This document shows positions 13,104 through 24,768 of a stretch of DNA of 64,000 nucleotides, piece after piece; within the stretch, counting starts at the first letter, position 1, and each line of letters starts with the position of its first letter. A program made the translations under genes and the position numbers. Below the pieces are notes generated by a model. That model was given only the letters and a program-made list of their open reading frames with translations, made no database searches and had not been told where the DNA came from. The stretch is from Actinomycetes bacterium (GTDB lineage Bacteria > Actinomycetota > Thermoleophilia > RBG-16-64-13). The stretch lies in NCBI GenBank assembly GCA_024637095.1, contig JAGXFV010000028.1, positions 62,001-126,000 on the forward strand, written 5' to 3'.

Positions 13104-13307
13104 GGTCTTCCCTTCGCGCACCGCACCGGACAGAAAACAGCGACTGCTCATAATACAAAGGAAGCGGGGCCGGGGGGAGGGTGCGCCTCCAGGCAAGGTG
13201 GATGGGGACGCACGTGAGCGGTGATGGCAAGCCTGTTCATGGGTCAGGGCCGTACGGACCGCGATGGTTCGCACCGCTCCCCTAGGCAAGCGGTTCCGCC
13301 CGTCGAA

Positions 13308-13715
13308 CTAAAGAACTGCCCGCACCGCCTCCATCAGTCGGCCGGCCTGCTCAATGGCGCGGGTGGCTTCTTCCTCGGTGAATGCCTCCGACGGGGTGAT
13401 GCCGGGGAGGGCGTCTGGATACCTGGTGGGAATGTAGAGCTTATCCAGGGCGGCGGCCAACGGAAGAAGCGCTTCCACGTCGAGGTTCGTCCGGCCCGGA
13501 GGCAGTTCCCCCAAGAGACGGACCGCGGAGTGTCCCCATGGATCCAGGTCCAGCCGGCGCCACAAGCCCTTCAGCGCCTTCTCCCCCGCCTGCTGCCCGT
13601 GGAAGGCGGCAAGGGCGTGATGACCGGCCTGCCTCAGCACCCTCGCCGCCGCGAGATCGTCTTCCGCCTGCGCCAGCCACCGCTCAGCCTCCTGCCGCAG
13701 CTTGTCTTGGCTCAC
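13308..13715 (-). CDS. HEPN-domain protein, toxin partner of an MNT/HEPN pair
   Basis: 135 residues. Four-helix HEPN fold: an early ERWLAQAEDDLAAARVL helix, AAFHGQQAGEKALKGL near 40, and the late signature DKLYIPTRYPDALPG near 95, typical of this HEPN branch (an R-Y-P-D form rather than the classical RxxxxH RNase motif). Its start overlaps the stop of the MNT gene by 4 bp, so translation is coupled. In characterised MNT/HEPN systems the HEPN protein is the toxin, an RNase inactivated by AMPylation by the MNT partner. The pair lies just outside the left end of the mobile element. Confidence 0.85.
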   Translation of the reverse strand: MSQDKLRQEAERWLAQAEDDLAAARVLRQAGHHALAAFHGQQAGEKALKGLWRRLDLDPWGHSAVRLLGELPPGRTNLDVEALLPLAAALDKLYIPTRYPDALPGITPSEAFTEEEATRAIEQAGRLMEAVRAVL

Positions 13716-14098
13716 CGGATCACACCCTCGCCATGAACGACGACGCCCTCAGAGAGAGCCCGTCGGACAAACGGCCGCTCCCGCATCTCGTCGAGCTCCT
13801 CCGGTGTGTAGACAAAAACCTCCACAGCCATCCCGCCCACGGCCTCGGTCAGGGGGAGCAGGTAGCGCTCGACGCGAGCCAGAAAGGGCTCTTCGGTGTG
13901 CTCGACCACGAGCACGTCGACGTCACTCCGCCGGCTGGGATTCCCAACCGCCCAGGAACCGAAGACCCAGGTCCGGTCGGCCCCGAGTCGTTCGGCGATT
14001 GAGGCCACGGCGGCGAAGACGTCGTCGCGGGTGGGTAGATCTCGCTCCTCTGCTTGCCGAGATTGAAGGTCCGTGGCATCTCCTCTTACTGGTCGCAT
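13712..14098 (-). CDS. MNT-type minimal nucleotidyltransferase, antitoxin partner
   Basis: 128 residues. The nucleotidyltransferase signature GSWAVGNPSRRSDVDVLVVE is at about residues 47-66: the GS motif and the DxD pair that bind metal and ATP. It precedes the HEPN gene with a 4-bp ATGA overlap. MNT proteins of these pairs are reported to AMPylate and silence their HEPN toxin. The start is uncertain; residues 1-22 could be trimmed to a start nearer DLPTRDDVFAAVAS. Together with 13308-13715 it forms a two-gene toxin-antitoxin or defence module. Confidence 0.85.
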   Translation of the reverse strand: MRPVRGDATDLQSRQAEERDLPTRDDVFAAVASIAERLGADRTWVFGSWAVGNPSRRSDVDVLVVEHTEEPFLARVERYLLPLTEAVGGMAVEVFVYTPEELDEMRERPFVRRALSEGVVVHGEGVIR

Positions 14099-14371: not shown

Positions 14372-14386
14372 TAAGCCGACGAGGGG
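14372..14386. other. attL core, left 15-bp direct repeat of the element
   Basis: taagccgacgagggg is identical to 24694-24708 within tRNA-Thr. This copy is a tRNA fragment not attached to any tRNA gene. Immediately inside it, CAAAGGA-CCA-TCCTTTG (14394-14410) is a perfect inverted repeat that may belong to the recombinase binding site. Confidence 0.85.
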
Positions 14387-14393
14387 GCTGATA

Positions 14394-14755: not shown

Positions 14756-15871
14756 TTAATAGCCAGGCTGGGCTGACTCCGAGAACTCGTCTAGGAACTC
14801 CGGCTTCATGTGCTGGAGGTAGCCGCGGAGCTTCTCCTCGTTTCGCTTTAGCTCGCTATACGGAATGAACTGGCAGTGTTCGTAAAGAGGCGGCTTCATT
14901 CTGGCGAAAGTGGGACGCGCTATTTCCGTCAGTACCTTGTCCCGCCGGTTGTCTGGCGCGACGATGTAGAGCCGAATGTTGATGTTGGGCTGCATCGCGA
15001 CCAGATCGGACATCCGCAAGAGGCCAGAGTAAATGGCAGTGCTGTGTTCAACCTCAAACGCTGCCTCAATAGCGTTCCCTCGCAGCCAGAGGACGTCTAT
15101 CAGTTCAATCGTCCGGTTCGTCGCCGGGTCGAACTGGGCCGGGAGGCTGTCTCTCATGCCAGGGAACTCGCCGAACGGCTGGCCTGCGTACTGCCGGTGC
15201 CGGTCGTTCTTGGCTACCCAGAGATCGAAGCCCATCTCGCTTCCCAGCTTTAGGAGGACCCATTGGATCTCCTCGTGGGTCACCTCCTGTTCCGTCTGGG
15301 CGGGTTCCAGTGACTCTTCCGGCTCGGGTGCCGGTTCGCTGACTTCTTCGGGAATCGTGACCGGCCCTTGCGTAGAGTCGAACGTCCTCGGCTTACGGCC
15401 CCACTTCCGCGCATTAACCTCGCGCACGACCGGGTGGCGCTGGGCGTCAGCGAGGGCCTTCATTACCTCCTGCGCGTCCTCTTCTTTTTCACGGGTGGGT
15501 GAGCTGCGGAAGTGACCAGTCCAGGCCATGGAGCTTTCGGCGTTCTGGAAGTAAGAAAGCCGGTCGCGCATAAGCTGCACGGGTATGGCGTGCTCCGGCT
15601 GGAGTGCAATCAGGACCTTAACGGGCAGCCTACTGGGATAGATCTGGTCCTCCCAGATCGGCTCGTCCGACCTGAAGGGCTGGCCGGTAACCTCTAGGGC
15701 ACCTATCCAGCGGGAAACTCCGGTGATGTAGCAGAGGAGAATGTCTCCCGGCTTCATCTTCTTCACCCTGTTCCAGCGGCCTTCGGGATACCCGCTCACT
15801 TCCCCGCCAGCCGCCAGGAACTCTTCCCAGGTCTTTCCTGTAAATAGGTCCAGCCAGTAGGACGGTGACAA
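14756..15871 (-). CDS. EVE-like domain fused to PD-(D/E)xK-like nuclease, candidate modification-dependent restriction enzyme
   Basis: 371 residues from TTG 15871, preceded by AGGGAGGT, which supports this rare start. Residues ~1-115 resemble the EVE/PUA-like fold (YWLDLFTGKTWEEFL, MKPGDILLCYITGVSRWIGALEVTG, then SRLPVKVLIAL). A proline/glutamate-rich linker spans ~160-195. The C-terminal half has a nuclease-like core: IELIDVLWLRG, then IEAAFEVEHSTAIYSGLLRMSDL (an aspartate followed by an ExE strand, as in PD-(D/E)xK variants), then NIRLYIVAPDNRR. EVE domains recognise modified bases and are often fused to nucleases in type IV-like restriction. I infer a defence cargo gene. Catalytic residues need alignment. 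Confidence 0.72.
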   Translation of the reverse strand: MSPSYWLDLFTGKTWEEFLAAGGEVSGYPEGRWNRVKKMKPGDILLCYITGVSRWIGALEVTGQPFRSDEPIWEDQIYPSRLPVKVLIALQPEHAIPVQLMRDRLSYFQNAESSMAWTGHFRSSPTREKEEDAQEVMKALADAQRHPVVREVNARKWGRKPRTFDSTQGPVTIPEEVSEPAPEPEESLEPAQTEQEVTHEEIQWVLLKLGSEMGFDLWVAKNDRHRQYAGQPFGEFPGMRDSLPAQFDPATNRTIELIDVLWLRGNAIEAAFEVEHSTAIYSGLLRMSDLVAMQPNINIRLYIVAPDNRRDKVLTEIARPTFARMKPPLYEHCQFIPYSELKRNEEKLRGYLQHMKPEFLDEFSESAQPGY

Positions 15872-16534: not shown

Positions 16535-16794
16535 TCTTCCTCCAGTTGAATCGCCCTGGCGGCAATTGCCAAGACCTCGTCGGCACCGGGTGAATAGTTG
16601 CCATCGTGAGTGAAGATCCCCTCACTCCGCTGCGATAGCACGAATCCAGAGGCAGCTGGGTCGAATGGATCGACGCACCCGCCGACCACCCTGGCCAGCT
16701 CCAGGGCGCTGGAGTAGCGTGGGGCCAGGGTCCGGGCCTTGGTCAGCAGGGCGGTCAGAGCAAGAGACCGGGTCTTTGCTTGTTCGGGGGTCAT
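16531..16794 (-). CDS. Small protein of the terS-linked operon, unknown
   Basis: 87 residues, ATG 16794. It is coupled at both ends: its ATG overlaps the stop of the terS-like gene by 4 bp and its stop overlaps the next start by 4 bp. The predicted fold is mixed, with helices at both ends (TPEQAKTRSLALTALLTKAR; VLAIAARAIQLEEE). No known domain. Confidence 0.62.
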   Translation of the reverse strand: MTPEQAKTRSLALTALLTKARTLAPRYSSALELARVVGGCVDPFDPAASGFVLSQRSEGIFTHDGNYSPGADEVLAIAARAIQLEEE

Positions 16795-17243
16795 GCGGGA
16801 TTCCTCCTGCCGGTTCTCCGGCGCTGGAGGGCGTTCTGCCGTCCAGCTTCGGATCGGGACTTCTTCGGGTTCAGCGCCTCGATGAGCTTGGCCAGCAGAC
16901 CACGCTCGGCGCGGATCTCGCTCAGCAGCGGCTGGGGCACGGGCTGGCCGCGGCTTCCCTTCACCGTGAGTGGCAGGCTCTCCAGTTCGGCCTCCAGCGT
17001 GGTGAGCCGGTCGACCAGGCGGCAGGCTTCCACCAGCAGCTCGATCTCGCCTTGTCCGAAGTTAGGGTTGCTCTCGGTAAACGCGTTCCAGAGCCGCTGG
17101 CCACGCTCACCAAGGTCGTCCGGCAAGGATGGGTCGCCCTCCGGCTCGGAGTTCCCCGGTGGGGACCCGGTCAGCTCGTCGATCCAGGCTTGGTCGTCGG
17201 TGTTGAGTCCCACCAGGGCGGGGATATTGTCGTCAGAGTGCAT
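16791..17243 (-). CDS. Terminase small subunit-like protein (P27-family type)
   Basis: 150 residues. ATG 17243 is chosen; GGAGG lies 5 bases upstream, and ATG 17246 would be too close. The core matches the P27-type TerS pattern: LGERGQRLWNAF near 45, GEIELLVEACRLVDRLTTLEAELES near 63-90, SRGQPVPQPLLSEIRAERGLLAKLIEALN near 98-128, and a basic C-terminal tail (RRRTGRRN). TerS recognises pac/cos DNA for packaging. No large terminase gene is nearby, so this fits a satellite TerS that redirects a helper phage's packaging. Family assignment is by pattern only. Confidence 0.7.
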   Translation of the reverse strand: MHSDDNIPALVGLNTDDQAWIDELTGSPPGNSEPEGDPSLPDDLGERGQRLWNAFTESNPNFGQGEIELLVEACRLVDRLTTLEAELESLPLTVKGSRGQPVPQPLLSEIRAERGLLAKLIEALNPKKSRSEAGRQNALQRRRTGRRNPA

Positions 17244-17419
17244 CATTACCTCCAATATAGGTTAATTGCAATATAGTTTGCAGCGCCCGTCGAGTGCTAA
17301 GCCCCCCGTTACGGCAGAGGCCCCCCGGTGCGGGGTCTCCCCACCCCTTGGTGCTGGGTCCAGGCCATGGGTCGCGCCGGGGCTGGTCTCCCTCGCCTCG
17401 TGCTGATTGTCACGAGTGG

Positions 17420-17672
17420 CTAGGCGTCCTGGTTCTCGGTGGCCAGGGCGCAGATGCCACAGTACGCAGCCAGGTTGCTCGGATCGAGTGTTGCCGCCAT
17501 CGACCAGCCTAACCAGCGGCTTGACCTCGCTGGCCTGACCTCCGCAGGCTCGGCACTCATGGCCGTCGCGCCGTAACACCTGGCGCTTGATCGCCCGCCA
17601 GGATCGGTCGCGGCCATTCTTCTGCTTCCATGGCCTCGGCTGGTCGTCGGTGTAGTTGGGTCGAGTTGACAT
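17420..17672 (-). pseudogene. Decayed HNH endonuclease gene (frameshift, catalytic His missing)
   Basis: The reading starts at ATG 17672 (GGAAGGA upstream). Residues 25-60 look like an HNH N-terminus: WRAIKRQVLRRDGHECRACGG, then ASEVKPLVRLVDGGN. At about 17492 the expected continuation moves to the +1 frame, where LDPSNLAAYCGICALATENQDA then stops at 17420-17422. Joined, the two give the usual HNH layout with two CxxC zinc pairs, but the EVDHIVPL motif is EVKPLVRL, so the catalytic histidine is gone. HNH genes often sit beside terS in phages. A sequence error could explain the frameshift but not the lost histidine. Confidence 0.65.
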
Positions 17673-17847
17673 CGTTGGGTCCTTCCATGCGGATATGGGC
17701 CAGCCTTCTGGCAAGCCAGGGGGGTGATATGCATTGACGGGGGCCGTGTTCATTCGACGGGGGTGTGCTTCGTGACGGGGAGGGCTAACCAGCGCGGCAC
17801 AGGTCACAGCGTCCTCGGGCGGATGGATCTGTTGATGGTCTGCCGCA

Positions 17848-19420: not shown

Positions 19421-19680
19421 GTGGTGTAGGGTGGTGTAGGCGGGGTGTAGGGTCGCCTACACCCTGTTTTTGGCTTAACCATGCGGCCTTAGCCAGCCTG
19501 GTGTAGGGGTGTAGGGAAATCACGAGTACACCGCTATACATAATATAGGGAGTAGGTATCTATATACTTTGTCTTTTAACAAAAACCCTACATCCCTACA
19601 CTGGAGGGTCTCAGCCCGCTGGTAGAGCCAAATCTGAGGTGTAGGGACCCTACACCCGACCCTACACCACCCTACACCCT
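19421..19680. other. Probable replication origin: iteron cluster with AT-rich core
   Basis: The 9-mer GGTGTAGGG, or its complement CCCTACACC, occurs at about 19423, 19433 (8 of 9), 19444, 19456 (complement), 19500, 19508, 19586 (degenerate), 19594 (near), 19638, 19648, 19660 and 19670. Left copies are mostly direct and right copies mostly complementary, flanking an AT-rich core at about 19517-19585. It lies directly beside the primase-helicase gene. Directly repeated sites plus an AT-rich segment beside a Rep/primase gene are the hallmark of iteron origins of plasmids and P4/PICI satellites. The whole 19388-19691 gap is otherwise gene-free. Confidence 0.85.
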
Positions 19681-19691
19681 GGTTAGGCTTC

Positions 19692-21395
19692 CTAACTAAC
19701 GGAGCGGAGCCGACGCGGCACCCTGGGGTCGCCCTGGTCGCTCAGCCACTCGGCGCGAATCGGGGGAAAGACATACTCAACACCGTGCTTGGTGCGCTTG
19801 TCCTCCAGCCCCACCTCGCGCAGGAGCTTGCCAAACTCAGAGAGCGCGGGGATGAAGTTGCCTCGTCCCTGGGATTCGTACCACTCGCGGGCGATGCCGT
19901 ATATCTTGGTGGCCGACATCGGCGACCATGTCTCCCTGGGCTGGTCCTGGTCGGTGACCTCGCGCAGGAAGGCTATAACGGGGTTGGAATCTTCCTTCCA
20001 TTCGCCACGGGCCTCGATGACTTCGGGCGGCTCCACTGATAGGCCGCGCTCCAGGTACTCCTGGAGACCGTCCACCATCTTGCGGAGCATGGCCTGGCCA
20101 GCTTCACGCTTGAGCCTGGCCTTCAGCGTCGTGTCCTGCTCGGCGTCCGGGATGCTCACTTTGAAGTCAAACGGCACCATCCGACGCCAGGTGCCGGAGT
20201 CGGTGGTGTTTATACGCAGCCGGTGGTTGGTGGCAATCCAGACCTTGAAGGAGCGCGGGAAATTGAGCGGGTCCTTGTGCTTGCGATCAGCACTCACGGT
20301 CGTGGAGGATGCGATCTCCTTCACCGTCGACTCGTCGAGCGTCCCCTTGCCGGGGTCGCTGGTGACCACCAGGCGCTTACCCTGGAGGACGGCGATGCCC
20401 GCGGCGTGTCGGTCGCTGCGGCGGTTGATCAGTTCCCTGGATGACATATAGCTCCCGTAGGTGGGTCCAACGGATTCCACGGCAAGCTCCAGGAGGGTGG
20501 TCTTGCCGTTGGCCGCGGTCTCACCAATCAGCGTGAAGAACTTCTCTTCTGAACTGGAACCAGTCAGCGAATAGCCAAGGGCGCGGAACAGATAGGCCAC
20601 ATACTCGTCCCGACTCTTCCGCTGGTCCTCGGGGGTGTCCCCAGTGAACAGCTCGGGCGGCTGGACCTTCTCCAGAAAAGCGTCCAGCTCCTCGTTCTCG
20701 GCCTCGGGGTCGAAGTCGAAGGGAATGACGCCGGTGTTCATATCACCTGGATGATGCTCCCTCCAGGTGAGGGTCCCGGCCTCGAAGTCAACTACTCCAA
20801 CCTGGTCCTGGAAGGGGATTAGGTGGGCGGGGTCCAGTTCGTCGATGGTGACCTGGAGACTGGGGAAGGTCTGGAGCCACTCGACCATTCGCCTAATGCC
20901 AACAATCGTCTTGACCTTCTTGATTACCTTCATGTAGAGGCCCCAAGACTCCTTGGTGACCTTCTTCACCTCATCCGGTGACATGTCCCCACTCATGTAG
21001 TGCCGTTCCAGTTGAAAATACCCAGTATCTTCCAGTTGGCATAGGAGATACTCGACGAACTGGCTGATCGCGGCCTTCTTCGGGTCCGCCTTCCAGCACT
21101 TCTTGTCCCATTTTAGCCAGTGATCAAGTTCCGGGCAGTATCGCCAGCAATCACTTTGCTTCAAGAACTGCATCAGAGTCCAGCCTAGGCCAGTCTCATC
21201 AGGTTGGACGAGCTTCCAAACGCCGTTGTCTATGACGTCGGCCACCTCTTCAACTTCGCCAGTAGGGTGAGCTGGCGCGGGTGAGCTGCCTGGTAGATCC
21301 GCTTCCCCTGGGGGATCATAAGGAGACCACTCTGGCGTCTCATCGGGAGTTAGGGTTTCCTGCACCTCCCGGGGTGCGTCATTCGTTGTGGACAT
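19692..21395 (-). CDS. P4/D5-family phage/plasmid primase-helicase
   Basis: 567 residues from ATG 21395. The first ~60 residues are Pro-rich. A D5_N-like region follows (~65-230). The superfamily 3 helicase domain is at ~280-470: Walker A GETAANGKTTLLEL near 288, SRELINRRSDRHAAGIAVLQGKRLVVTSD (Walker B region) near 320-345, then SFKVWIATNHRLRINTTDSGTWRRMVPFDF (sensor and arginine finger) near 390-420. The C-terminus has a winged-helix-like segment. Family members unwind and initiate replication at iteron origins; the iteron cluster lies immediately downstream. A classical N-terminal prim-pol motif is not obvious, so it may be helicase only. Confidence 0.88.
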   Translation of the reverse strand: MSTTNDAPREVQETLTPDETPEWSPYDPPGEADLPGSSPAPAHPTGEVEEVADVIDNGVWKLVQPDETGLGWTLMQFLKQSDCWRYCPELDHWLKWDKKCWKADPKKAAISQFVEYLLCQLEDTGYFQLERHYMSGDMSPDEVKKVTKESWGLYMKVIKKVKTIVGIRRMVEWLQTFPSLQVTIDELDPAHLIPFQDQVGVVDFEAGTLTWREHHPGDMNTGVIPFDFDPEAENEELDAFLEKVQPPELFTGDTPEDQRKSRDEYVAYLFRALGYSLTGSSSEEKFFTLIGETAANGKTTLLELAVESVGPTYGSYMSSRELINRRSDRHAAGIAVLQGKRLVVTSDPGKGTLDESTVKEIASSTTVSADRKHKDPLNFPRSFKVWIATNHRLRINTTDSGTWRRMVPFDFKVSIPDAEQDTTLKARLKREAGQAMLRKMVDGLQEYLERGLSVEPPEVIEARGEWKEDSNPVIAFLREVTDQDQPRETWSPMSATKIYGIAREWYESQGRGNFIPALSEFGKLLREVGLEDKRTKHGVEYVFPPIRAEWLSDQGDPRVPRRLRSVS

Positions 21396-21462: not shown

Positions 21463-21660
21463 TCACTGAGTGGGGTTCTTCCGCGCATCACTGAGCCAGC
21501 GCAGAACGTCAGCGAGTTCGTAGCGGACTACGTTGGTAGATAGCTTGTGATAGGCCGGACCCTTCCCAACCTTGCGCCAGTAGCGCAGCGTGTTGCGATT
21601 GGTGCCGGTCATCTCCGCGACTTCGGCGGTGGTGAGCATGGCCTTTGGTACATCGTTCAT
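21463..21660 (-). CDS. AlpA/excisionase-type small HTH protein
   Basis: 65 residues. ATG 21660 is chosen, with GGAGGAAG upstream. A MerR-like helix-turn-helix domain fills the protein: AMLTTAEVAEMTGTNRNTLR, then YWRKVGKGPAYHKL, with the wing VVRYELADVLRWLSD. These HTH_17/AlpA proteins act as excisionases or activators in P4-like satellites and integrative elements. It sits directly upstream of the primase-helicase gene on the same strand and may control it. Confidence 0.78.
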   Translation of the reverse strand: MNDVPKAMLTTAEVAEMTGTNRNTLRYWRKVGKGPAYHKLSTNVVRYELADVLRWLSDARKNPTQ

Positions 21661-21710
21661 TGTGGGACTTCCTCCCTTCCTTAATGGGTGTGTTGGTAAG
21701 AGGGCGCACG

Positions 21711-21740
21711 AAAAAGACACCTCCGGCTGGAGGTGCTTTT
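21711..21740. terminator. Bidirectional intrinsic terminator
   Basis: CACCTCC (21718-21724), GGCT, GGAGGTG (21729-21735), flanked by AAAAA on the left and CTTTT on the right, giving a U-tract in both directions. On the minus strand it would end transcription from the sigma-like gene before the AlpA-like gene. The remaining gap to 21954 has only a short hairpin (21882-21899, GAGGGG/CCCCTC). Confidence 0.75.
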
Positions 21741-21954
21741 GGATTTGGTCGTGTCTACAGTGAACCGGGCTGAGTCGCCACCCCTGACGACCAGCCCCGG
21801 CCACCGACACGAAAGAAGTAGGATGTCCAGCACCTGGACCACCACATCACAGGTGCCGGGCCATCCACACTATGGAGGAGCGAGGGGAAAAGACCCCTCT
21901 ATGGTAGTAATCGAATAGCGAGTGGTCATTGTTGACGGTTTCGCCGAAAACTTT

Positions 21955-22923: not shown

Positions 22924-23203
22924 GGGGGTCTCCGGGGTCGAGGGGCGTAAAGATCTATATACCTAGTAGAACGTATGCGGGCAGAAAAGGTAACATACTG
23001 GCTCAACGTTTCCTTGAGGCTCGTGCTGGAGAACTGCGTTGGTGGTACCTAGATTCTACTAGTATACCTCGGAGAGGTTACTCCAAGCTGGATCTACTGG
23101 GATCACGGCCACCTTTGCCTTACCGCTCGTGTCAGACTGGCGCGGATTCGTCCGGTGGTCTAAACTATTACCGAAGTCAGCCGGTCTGGCAGGGAGGTTC
23201 TCG
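22924..23203. promoter_or_regulatory. Divergent promoter/operator region between sigma-like gene and integrase
   Basis: A 280-bp gene-free, AT-richer region. CTAGTAGAA (22963-22971) is repeated inverted as TTCTACTAG (23054-23062), and GGTACCTAG...CTAGTATACC (about 23044-23068) is an imperfect palindrome. Such spaced operators fit a lysogeny-type switch. No precise -35/-10 is assigned. Confidence 0.5.
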
Positions 23204-24730
23204 GTGCCAAAGCAGATAGCCATTTACGCCCGCGTTAGCTCACAGGAGCAGGCGCAGGGCTTCTCCATCGACGAGCAGATCCGGCGCGGCCAGATGTACG
23301 CCGAACTGCACAACCTCGCATCGGTGGAGATCTACCAGGACCCTGGCTTCACGGGCACGAATCCGAACCGGCCCGCGTTCCAGCAGATGATGTCTCAGGT
23401 CAAGGCTGGCCAGATCTCGGACATCGTGATCTCCAGGCTCGACCGGCTACACCGCAACCTCGGCGATCTACAGGCCACCATCGCCAGCCTGGAGAAGCAC
23501 GGGGTAACTCTTCACGGCATCAACGAGAACCTCGACACGAAAAGCGCCGCGGGAAGGCTGTTCGTCAACATCATGGGCAGCTTCGGTATGTACTTCTCGG
23601 AGCAGCTCTCCGAGCGGGTGGTGGCCGGGCATCGTGAGGCCCAGCGGCAGGGTAGCTGGACGAACCATGCCCCCGTCGGTTACGACCTGGTCGACGGCCA
23701 GCTGGTGGTCAATGAGGACGAGGCCCAGCGAGTGCGGCGGGCGTTTGAGCTGGCGGCAACAGACGCTTCCCTCGCCGAGATCTCCGCGGCCACCGATTTC
23801 TCCCGCGCCTACGTAGGCTACCTGCTTCGCAACCCGGCGTATCTCGGCCTGGTCTACGAACGCCTCGCCGATCTCCCCCGCAACCGGCCCAGCCAGCTCC
23901 TACGGGAGCGCGAGGACGTTCACGAGGGGAGACACGAGGCCCTGGTGGAGGACGAGACGTGGGACGTGGTGCAGGACGTTCGGGGTGCCCGCTCAAATGC
24001 AGGCGAGGACGCTACCCGCCACCCCTTCTCGGGAATCCTTCGGTGTGAATGCGGGGCCGCGATGGAACTGCACCAGGCGAAGCCCGGCGTCTATACCTAC
24101 CGCTGCACCAAGCGGACCCTCCATAAGAGCCAGCGCATGGTCGAGCAGACCCTTCTCGCTTATCTGGACACCGTGCGCGAGGACACCGAGACAATGGAGG
24201 AGATTCGACAGGCCCTAAAAGACGAGGGTGCCGCAGCCCACCAGCGAGTGGCCGGTCGGCTTCCACAGGCGAGGCGAAAGCTCACCGAGGCTCGGACTGC
24301 CCGCGACCGCTGGAGCGACGCATACGCCCGCGGGGTGACTGACGAGGAGACCTTCCAGGCACACCAGCCGAAGATCGCCGCCGATCTGCGCGAAGCAGCA
24401 GAGGAGCTGGCCATGCTGGAGAACGTCGAGCAGTCGGTCGAGGTCCAGAAGGCGGAGTTTGAGGAGTTCGTCGAGACGCTCCTTGAGATGCCCTTGATTT
24501 CCACCCTGTGGGACTACTGGGACCAAGCAGAAAAGGGCGTCCTCCTGCGAAGCCTGCTGCTGAGGGTGACCGTGCAGAAGGACAGCCTCATCGTCCAGCC
24601 GCTCCAGGGACCAGCGGTGGAGCTTAACTACGTCGAGACGAGAGGCCGCAAACCCTCTAGTGGCGCGGGTTTAGGAAAGGTTGGTAATACGTCTAAGCCG
24701 ACGAGGGGACTCGAACCCCTAACCTGCTGA
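23204..24730 (+). CDS. Large serine recombinase (integrase) of the element
   Basis: 508 residues. GTG 23204 is preferred over an earlier in-frame start because AGGGAGG lies at 23191-23197. The resolvase catalytic domain begins IAIYARVSSQEQAQGFSIDEQ, with catalytic Ser12 in YARVS; DIVISRLDRLHRN near 70 carries catalytic arginines, and GMYFSEQLSERV near 120 follows. A recombinase domain and a zinc-ribbon-like ILRCECGAAM ... YRCTKR region near 280 follow, then a coiled coil (LTEARTARDRWSDAYARG and on). The last residues (KPTRGLEPLTC) are encoded by the attachment core and tRNA-Thr, so the C-terminus depends on integration state. Confidence 0.93.
   Translation: MPKQIAIYARVSSQEQAQGFSIDEQIRRGQMYAELHNLASVEIYQDPGFTGTNPNRPAFQQMMSQVKAGQISDIVISRLDRLHRNLGDLQATIASLEKHGVTLHGINENLDTKSAAGRLFVNIMGSFGMYFSEQLSERVVAGHREAQRQGSWTNHAPVGYDLVDGQLVVNEDEAQRVRRAFELAATDASLAEISAATDFSRAYVGYLLRNPAYLGLVYERLADLPRNRPSQLLREREDVHEGRHEALVEDETWDVVQDVRGARSNAGEDATRHPFSGILRCECGAAMELHQAKPGVYTYRCTKRTLHKSQRMVEQTLLAYLDTVREDTETMEEIRQALKDEGAAAHQRVAGRLPQARRKLTEARTARDRWSDAYARGVTDEETFQAHQPKIAADLREAAEELAMLENVEQSVEVQKAEFEEFVETLLEMPLISTLWDYWDQAEKGVLLRSLLLRVTVQKDSLIVQPLQGPAVELNYVETRGRKPSSGAGLGKVGNTSKPTRGLEPLTC
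24694..24708. other. attR core inside tRNA-Thr
   Basis: taagccgacgagggg, the second copy of the 15-bp repeat. It covers the tRNA discriminator, the acceptor 3' strand and part of the T stem, so insertion leaves the tRNA intact. Confidence 0.85.
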
Positions 24731-24768
24731 TTACAAATCAGCTGCTCTGCCAGTTGAGCCACGTCGGC
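24696..24768 (-). tRNA. tRNA-Thr (anticodon UGU)
   Basis: 73 nt on the minus strand. Acceptor stem GCCGACG/CGTCGGC; D arm GCTC...GAGC; anticodon arm GCTGA-TTTGTAA-TCAGC, with UGU at loop positions 3-5; T arm AGGGG-TTCGAGT-CCCCT; discriminator U. No CCA is encoded. It is the integration site of the adjacent element and remains complete. Confidence 0.95.

Follow-up and report, generated by a model that had tools for sequence, protein, structure and literature searches.

A predicted EVE–PD-(D/E)XK modification-dependent restriction endonuclease as terminal cargo of a phage-satellite-like element

Introduction

Biochemical work on enzymes that fuse an EVE domain to a nuclease has dealt with the EVE-HNH branch, and we know of no EVE–PD-(D/E)XK enzyme that has been tested. 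A 2020 analysis of many genomes predicted a class of EVE–PD-(D/E)XK proteins to act as type IV enzymes (Bell, Wolf and Koonin, PMC7641849). VcaM4I, an EVE-HNH enzyme, flips 5-methylcytosine (5mC) or 5-hydroxymethylcytosine, and the roles of its base pocket and catalytic residues have been tested by restriction of phage T4gt (PMC7897488). Here we analyze a 371-residue protein encoded in a 64,000-nucleotide stretch of Actinomycetes contig JAGXFV010000028.1 (the window), which we read as a probable single-chain EVE–PD-(D/E)XK fusion carried by a phage-satellite-like element.

The window protein shares its predicted domain architecture and role with the class of Bell, Wolf and Koonin and is set apart by lying in a phage-satellite-like element. 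The architecture itself was already predicted (PMC7641849); what is new is an additional member, its satellite setting and the evidence for domain swapping. Like VcaM4I and TspA15I (PMC7897488), the protein joins an EVE domain to a nuclease, and VcaM4I has the same order of an N-terminal EVE domain and a C-terminal nuclease. However, the nuclease of those enzymes is HNH, whereas that of the window protein is of a putative ExE PD-(D/E)XK type, and its EVE domain is nearer to PH1033/UPF0310. The C-terminal nuclease is homologous to the REase_II family of PADLOC and to plasmid-borne proteins annotated as type II restriction endonucleases. The setting resembles that of P4-like satellites (PMC9122126), as a small phage-satellite element with a defense-type cargo gene, but the window element belongs to another family, with a serine integrase at tRNA-Thr, a D5 primase and a terminase small subunit (TerS). 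Classical type II restriction-modification systems differ in having an adjacent cognate methyltransferase, and none was found in the window element.

Results

The gene and its relatives

The gene begins with a TTG codon located 5 nt after GGAGG. Its product is divided as follows.

14756–15871, minus strand: predicted EVE–PD-(D/E)XK nuclease fusion, 371 residues, TTG start
15437–15871, minus strand: EVE domain, residues 1–145 (profile and Foldseek matches)
15278–15436, minus strand: linker, residues 146–198 (AlphaFold2 confidence)
14756–15277, minus strand: putative nuclease module, residues 199–371 (hidden Markov model match, invariant residues and structural model)

A search of related loci returned four full-length relatives in bins of Anaerolineae, Neomarinimicrobiota and Planctomycetota, representing several phyla, with 51–58% identity over 356–367 residues. 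The existence of these full-length homologs indicates that the open reading frame is real and not a chance one. Six further long matches (31–56% identity) were found in 396 genomes of the host's phylum, one of which carries an internal stop. Viral contigs gave no match with a single-sequence search, and profile searches of them recovered three members (L042, L043 and L044; loci are cited by such identifiers). No match was found among INPHARED phages or in the sister genome G001, and no plasmid match covers 80% of the query. Broken pieces of EVE-nuclease genes are present in a genome of the host's family (L052; G010:C1:68886-74532, about 8.9–14.5 kb of the locus), where a single 6-kb stretch holds EVE fragments at two places and one C-terminal fragment.

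The EVE half

The Pfam EVE model matches the N-terminal half weakly (E = 0.016, below threshold), and NCBIfam PRK00809 matches it at 4.9e-7, short of the model's own curated cut-off. Comparison of PDB sequences with a profile of 13 family members gave PH1033 at 2.6e-11 and MJECL36 at 1.6e-9. Foldseek likewise matched the modeled N-terminal half to PH1033 (1.8e-10), to the EVE-HNH enzyme VcaM4I (3e-5), and to MJECL36 and many YTH domains. In the AlphaFold2 model, ten-residue means of confidence range from 69 to 96 over residues 1–150, and the predicted local distance difference test (pLDDT) falls below 50 at residues 163–193. On the profiles and the predicted structure, we assign residues 1–145 to an EVE domain, as the initial annotation had done from an EVE/PUA-like sequence pattern; the linker that it had placed after this domain corresponds to the low-confidence stretch.

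Three aromatic residues of this domain, Tyr28, Trp75 and Tyr78, are kept in kind across most EVE-nuclease members. The comparison of the family profile with PDB sequences puts Trp75 opposite a Trp in a YTH protein that reads methylated RNA. This correspondence makes an aromatic base pocket in the EVE domain plausible. In VcaM4I, the base pocket is hydrophobic or aromatic and is formed by Pro24, Trp82 and Tyr130 (PMC7897488).

The nuclease half

The PADLOC REase_II profile, which represents type II restriction endonucleases, matches residues 198–342 (1.7e-19), and homologs of the C-terminal half were found in 175 plasmid records, many of those listed being annotated as type II restriction endonucleases. 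The nuclease-like core noted initially, IDVLW...FEVEHS, falls within this region. Gln203, Asp223, Asp259, Glu273 and Glu275 are invariant in the full-length family, and the last four of these (Asp24, Asp60, Glu74 and Glu76 of the isolated domain) are also invariant among 16 diverse relatives. The catalytic-type motif Asp259...Glu273-x-Glu275, whose loss from the alignment would have spoken against a nuclease, is therefore intact. We take this D...ExE pattern to be akin to the active sites of BamHI-type enzymes.

The isolated nuclease domain was modeled with a pLDDT of 90 and a predicted template modeling score of 0.87. The modeled core has the order helix-strand-strand-strand-helix-strand, with one extra helix preceding the second strand, and its top fold matches in the PDB include BsaWI, EcoT38I, PspGI, Can2, EcoO109I and MspJI. 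A profile of the nuclease half gave only chance matches to PDB sequences. Of the two folds proposed initially, the EVE fold was thus recovered by structure comparison, whereas for the nuclease half the PD-(D/E)XK topology fits and the best matches are restriction enzymes at a non-significant E of 0.02. Because of this value, a PD-(D/E)XK fold is a consistent reading of the C-terminal half and not a proven one.

The nuclease module also occurs behind other N-termini. In L005, L006, L007, L010 and L040 it is found without an EVE sequence, and in L041 an EVE sequence was likewise not found in the stretch read, which has another N-terminus; L040 and L041 are the two plasmid homologs examined. In L006, the gene next to the nuclease-module protein encodes a C5-methyltransferase (4.1e-60). 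Since the module is joined to varied N-termini, it looks like a general cutter, and specificity likely resides in the N-terminal domain.

The satellite-like element

The gene lies within a 10.3-kb element bounded by 18-nt attachment (att) repeats that are identical at 17 of 18 positions, and the element is inserted in tRNA-Thr. No other exact match of at least 14 bases to the tRNA region was found between position 11 kb and the tRNA. The recognized features of the element are as follows.

14372–14389: att repeat at the left end, matching the 3' end of tRNA-Thr at 17 of 18 positions
16791–17255, minus strand: TerS (phrog_1496, 5.8e-18)
17262–17807, minus strand: HNH protein, weak match
19692–21395, minus strand: D5-type primase-helicase
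21463–21810, minus strand: MerR/excisionase-like helix-turn-helix protein
23129–24730, plus strand: large serine recombinase (integrase)
24694–24711: att repeat, right end, inside tRNA-Thr (24696–24768, minus strand)

No capsid, portal, tail or terminase large subunit (TerL) gene was recognized among the element genes, where small open reading frames without matches remain. The integrase, att repeats, primase and TerS, together with the lack of recognized structural genes, make the element phage-satellite-like by its gene content, which upholds the earlier reading of it as a satellite. The EVE-nuclease is the last minus-strand gene, at the end of the att-bounded element, and so occupies the terminal cargo position that had been ascribed to it. 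No viral contig matched the element's primase.

The sister species G001 is collinear with the window at 83–89% identity up to position 13180 and again from 24695. Only 640 unrelated bases lie between these points, which means that the element is absent there. G001 carries an apparently small, satellite-like element at tRNA-Leu (L077) with an integrase, a helicase/primase and a TerS homolog 44% identical to that of the window, and another at tRNA-Phe (L078) with an integrase and a primase. Both integrases are phrog_1-type. These observations are consistent with a satellite backbone whose cargo gene varies.

Three further features were observed in or beside the element. The integrase reading frame stops within tRNA-Thr (24694–24730), so its last codons are supplied by the attachment site. 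In the interval separating the primase gene from the small gene next to it (19421–19684), short direct and inverted repeats cluster around CCTACACC, among them a perfectly matching inverted pair of 18 nt separated by 220 nt; this iteron-like cluster is a candidate for the element's replication origin. A HEPN protein and a nucleotidyltransferase, which form a pair of the HEPN/MNT toxin-antitoxin type (13308–14098), are encoded immediately beyond the left att repeat, in a stretch that is missing from the sister genome at the same site.

Genomic contexts and methyltransferases

Most EVE-nuclease homologs are found in chromosomal contexts and not in satellites. In L051, the EVE-nuclease gene immediately precedes, in the same orientation, an AAA_5 (McrB-like) gene and McrC (PF10117, 3.7e-59; L051:379-5415). 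In L049, it lies at the edge of a restriction-modification island of type ISP and BbrUII/HgiDII-like systems with Vsr. The C5-methyltransferase of L049 was considered as its partner and set aside, because it forms a co-directional cluster with the BbrUII/HgiDII-like protein and Vsr and the EVE gene is on the opposite strand. Cmr genes (type III-B CRISPR) adjoin the EVE-nuclease in L047, a second EVE protein is encoded near it in L050, and tape-measure and neck protein genes adjoin it in L043, a viral contig. In L001, L002, L004 and L048, the EVE-nuclease is apparently solitary, mainly from reading the translated neighbors.

Two neighboring genes in viral contigs were also noted. On the 124-kb contig of L044, an 829-residue protein with an NPPYG methyltransferase-like motif (L044:5059-7548) is encoded about 450 bases upstream of the EVE-nuclease and has no Pfam or NCBIfam match. 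In L042, four bases are shared between the end of the EVE-nuclease gene and a gene for a small protein (L042:9098-9505); the small protein has its own nuclease-like GIDVIG...WIIEVKG motif and lacks a Pfam match.

The open reading frames scanned in the 10.3-kb element yielded no methyltransferase. In the host genome, methyltransferases were sought by family (PF00145, PF01555 and PF02384); no PF00145 C5-methyltransferase match was obtained, and an N6/N4 and an N6 methyltransferase are encoded.

Discussion

We consider it fairly likely, at roughly 70%, that the gene encodes a single-chain EVE–PD-(D/E)XK modification-dependent (type IV-like) restriction endonuclease carried as accessory cargo of the satellite. 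In this mechanism, the EVE domain would scan incoming DNA and bind a flipped-out modified base, and the PD-(D/E)XK module would cut nearby, with Asp259 and Glu273-x-Glu275 holding metal ions; the enzyme would protect the host and the satellite from phages with modified DNA. Modification dependence is suggested by the lack of a methyltransferase in the element and of a C5-methyltransferase match in the host, as well as by the presence of relatives in defense islands, one of them beside McrB/McrC, and in phage contigs. Cleavage of modified-base DNA by the EVE-nuclease is plausible, and the contexts of the family favor it. Several observations weigh against this reading of the enzyme. The nuclease half gave a fold match that is non-significant on its own. 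At three of 14 loci (L049, L003 and L044), a methyltransferase or a gene resembling one lies no more than about 5 kb away; the neighbors of the other loci were for the most part assessed by eye, on contigs several of which are short. In addition, four of the 12 carrier genomes searched contain C5-methyltransferases, which makes indiscriminate cutting of 5mC unlikely in those four. The EVE domain is also about equally close in fold to YTH domains, readers of N6-methyladenine, and to the 5mC-reading EVE domain of VcaM4I, so that a preference for modified cytosine over another base is not supported.

The methyltransferases or methyltransferase-like genes near the EVE-nuclease in L049, L044 and L003 would also suit a conventional type II restriction endonuclease, whose EVE-like domain would read a short unmodified site and whose host would be protected by a methyltransferase encoded elsewhere. 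The same nuclease module stands next to a C5-methyltransferase behind another N-terminus in L006, and the host does have its N6/N4 and N6 enzymes. However, a mobile element must survive in new hosts, and no methyltransferase was found in this one; the L049 enzyme clusters with other genes, most relatives look solitary, and VcaM4I recognizes modified bases through its EVE domain. We therefore regard a type II enzyme as unlikely. Reading of modified RNA, such as tRNA or phage mRNA, with cleavage or abortive infection as the outcome instead of DNA restriction, appears distinctly improbable. PH1033 and MJECL36, the nearest EVE structures that have been solved, carry no annotation beyond UPF0310, and the same search also scores YTH RNA readers, but the nuclease half is from a family that has been annotated, and clustered, as DNA restriction endonucleases, and its neighbors include McrBC, restriction-modification and C5-methyltransferase genes. 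It is very improbable that the enzyme instead serves the satellite life cycle by attacking or processing helper-phage DNA. Such a role would suit its position downstream of, and on the same strand as, the HNH and TerS genes; nevertheless, the sister genome has an element with a homologous TerS and no EVE-nuclease match, and the chromosomal location of most homologs also argues against it.

Sparing of the helper, inferred in the initial annotation, is not supported by the analysis. A trend for cargo to spare the helper was reported for P4 satellites from a handful of interactions (PMC9122126). Under an unlikely reading, the enzyme is a selective weapon that would leave a helper with unmodified DNA alone and restrict its cutting to phages whose bases are modified; the satellite would then guard its host without harming its own vehicle. 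No helper was found: PF03354, the one TerL family searched, has no match in the host (G000) or in G001.

Reader and cutter are clearly delimited in this family, natural relatives carry the same cutter on other N-termini, and members occur next to McrBC genes as well as in a satellite and in phage contigs. As a compact object of study, the family lends itself to identifying the base that an EVE domain recognizes and to the discovery of enzymes that cleave modified DNA.
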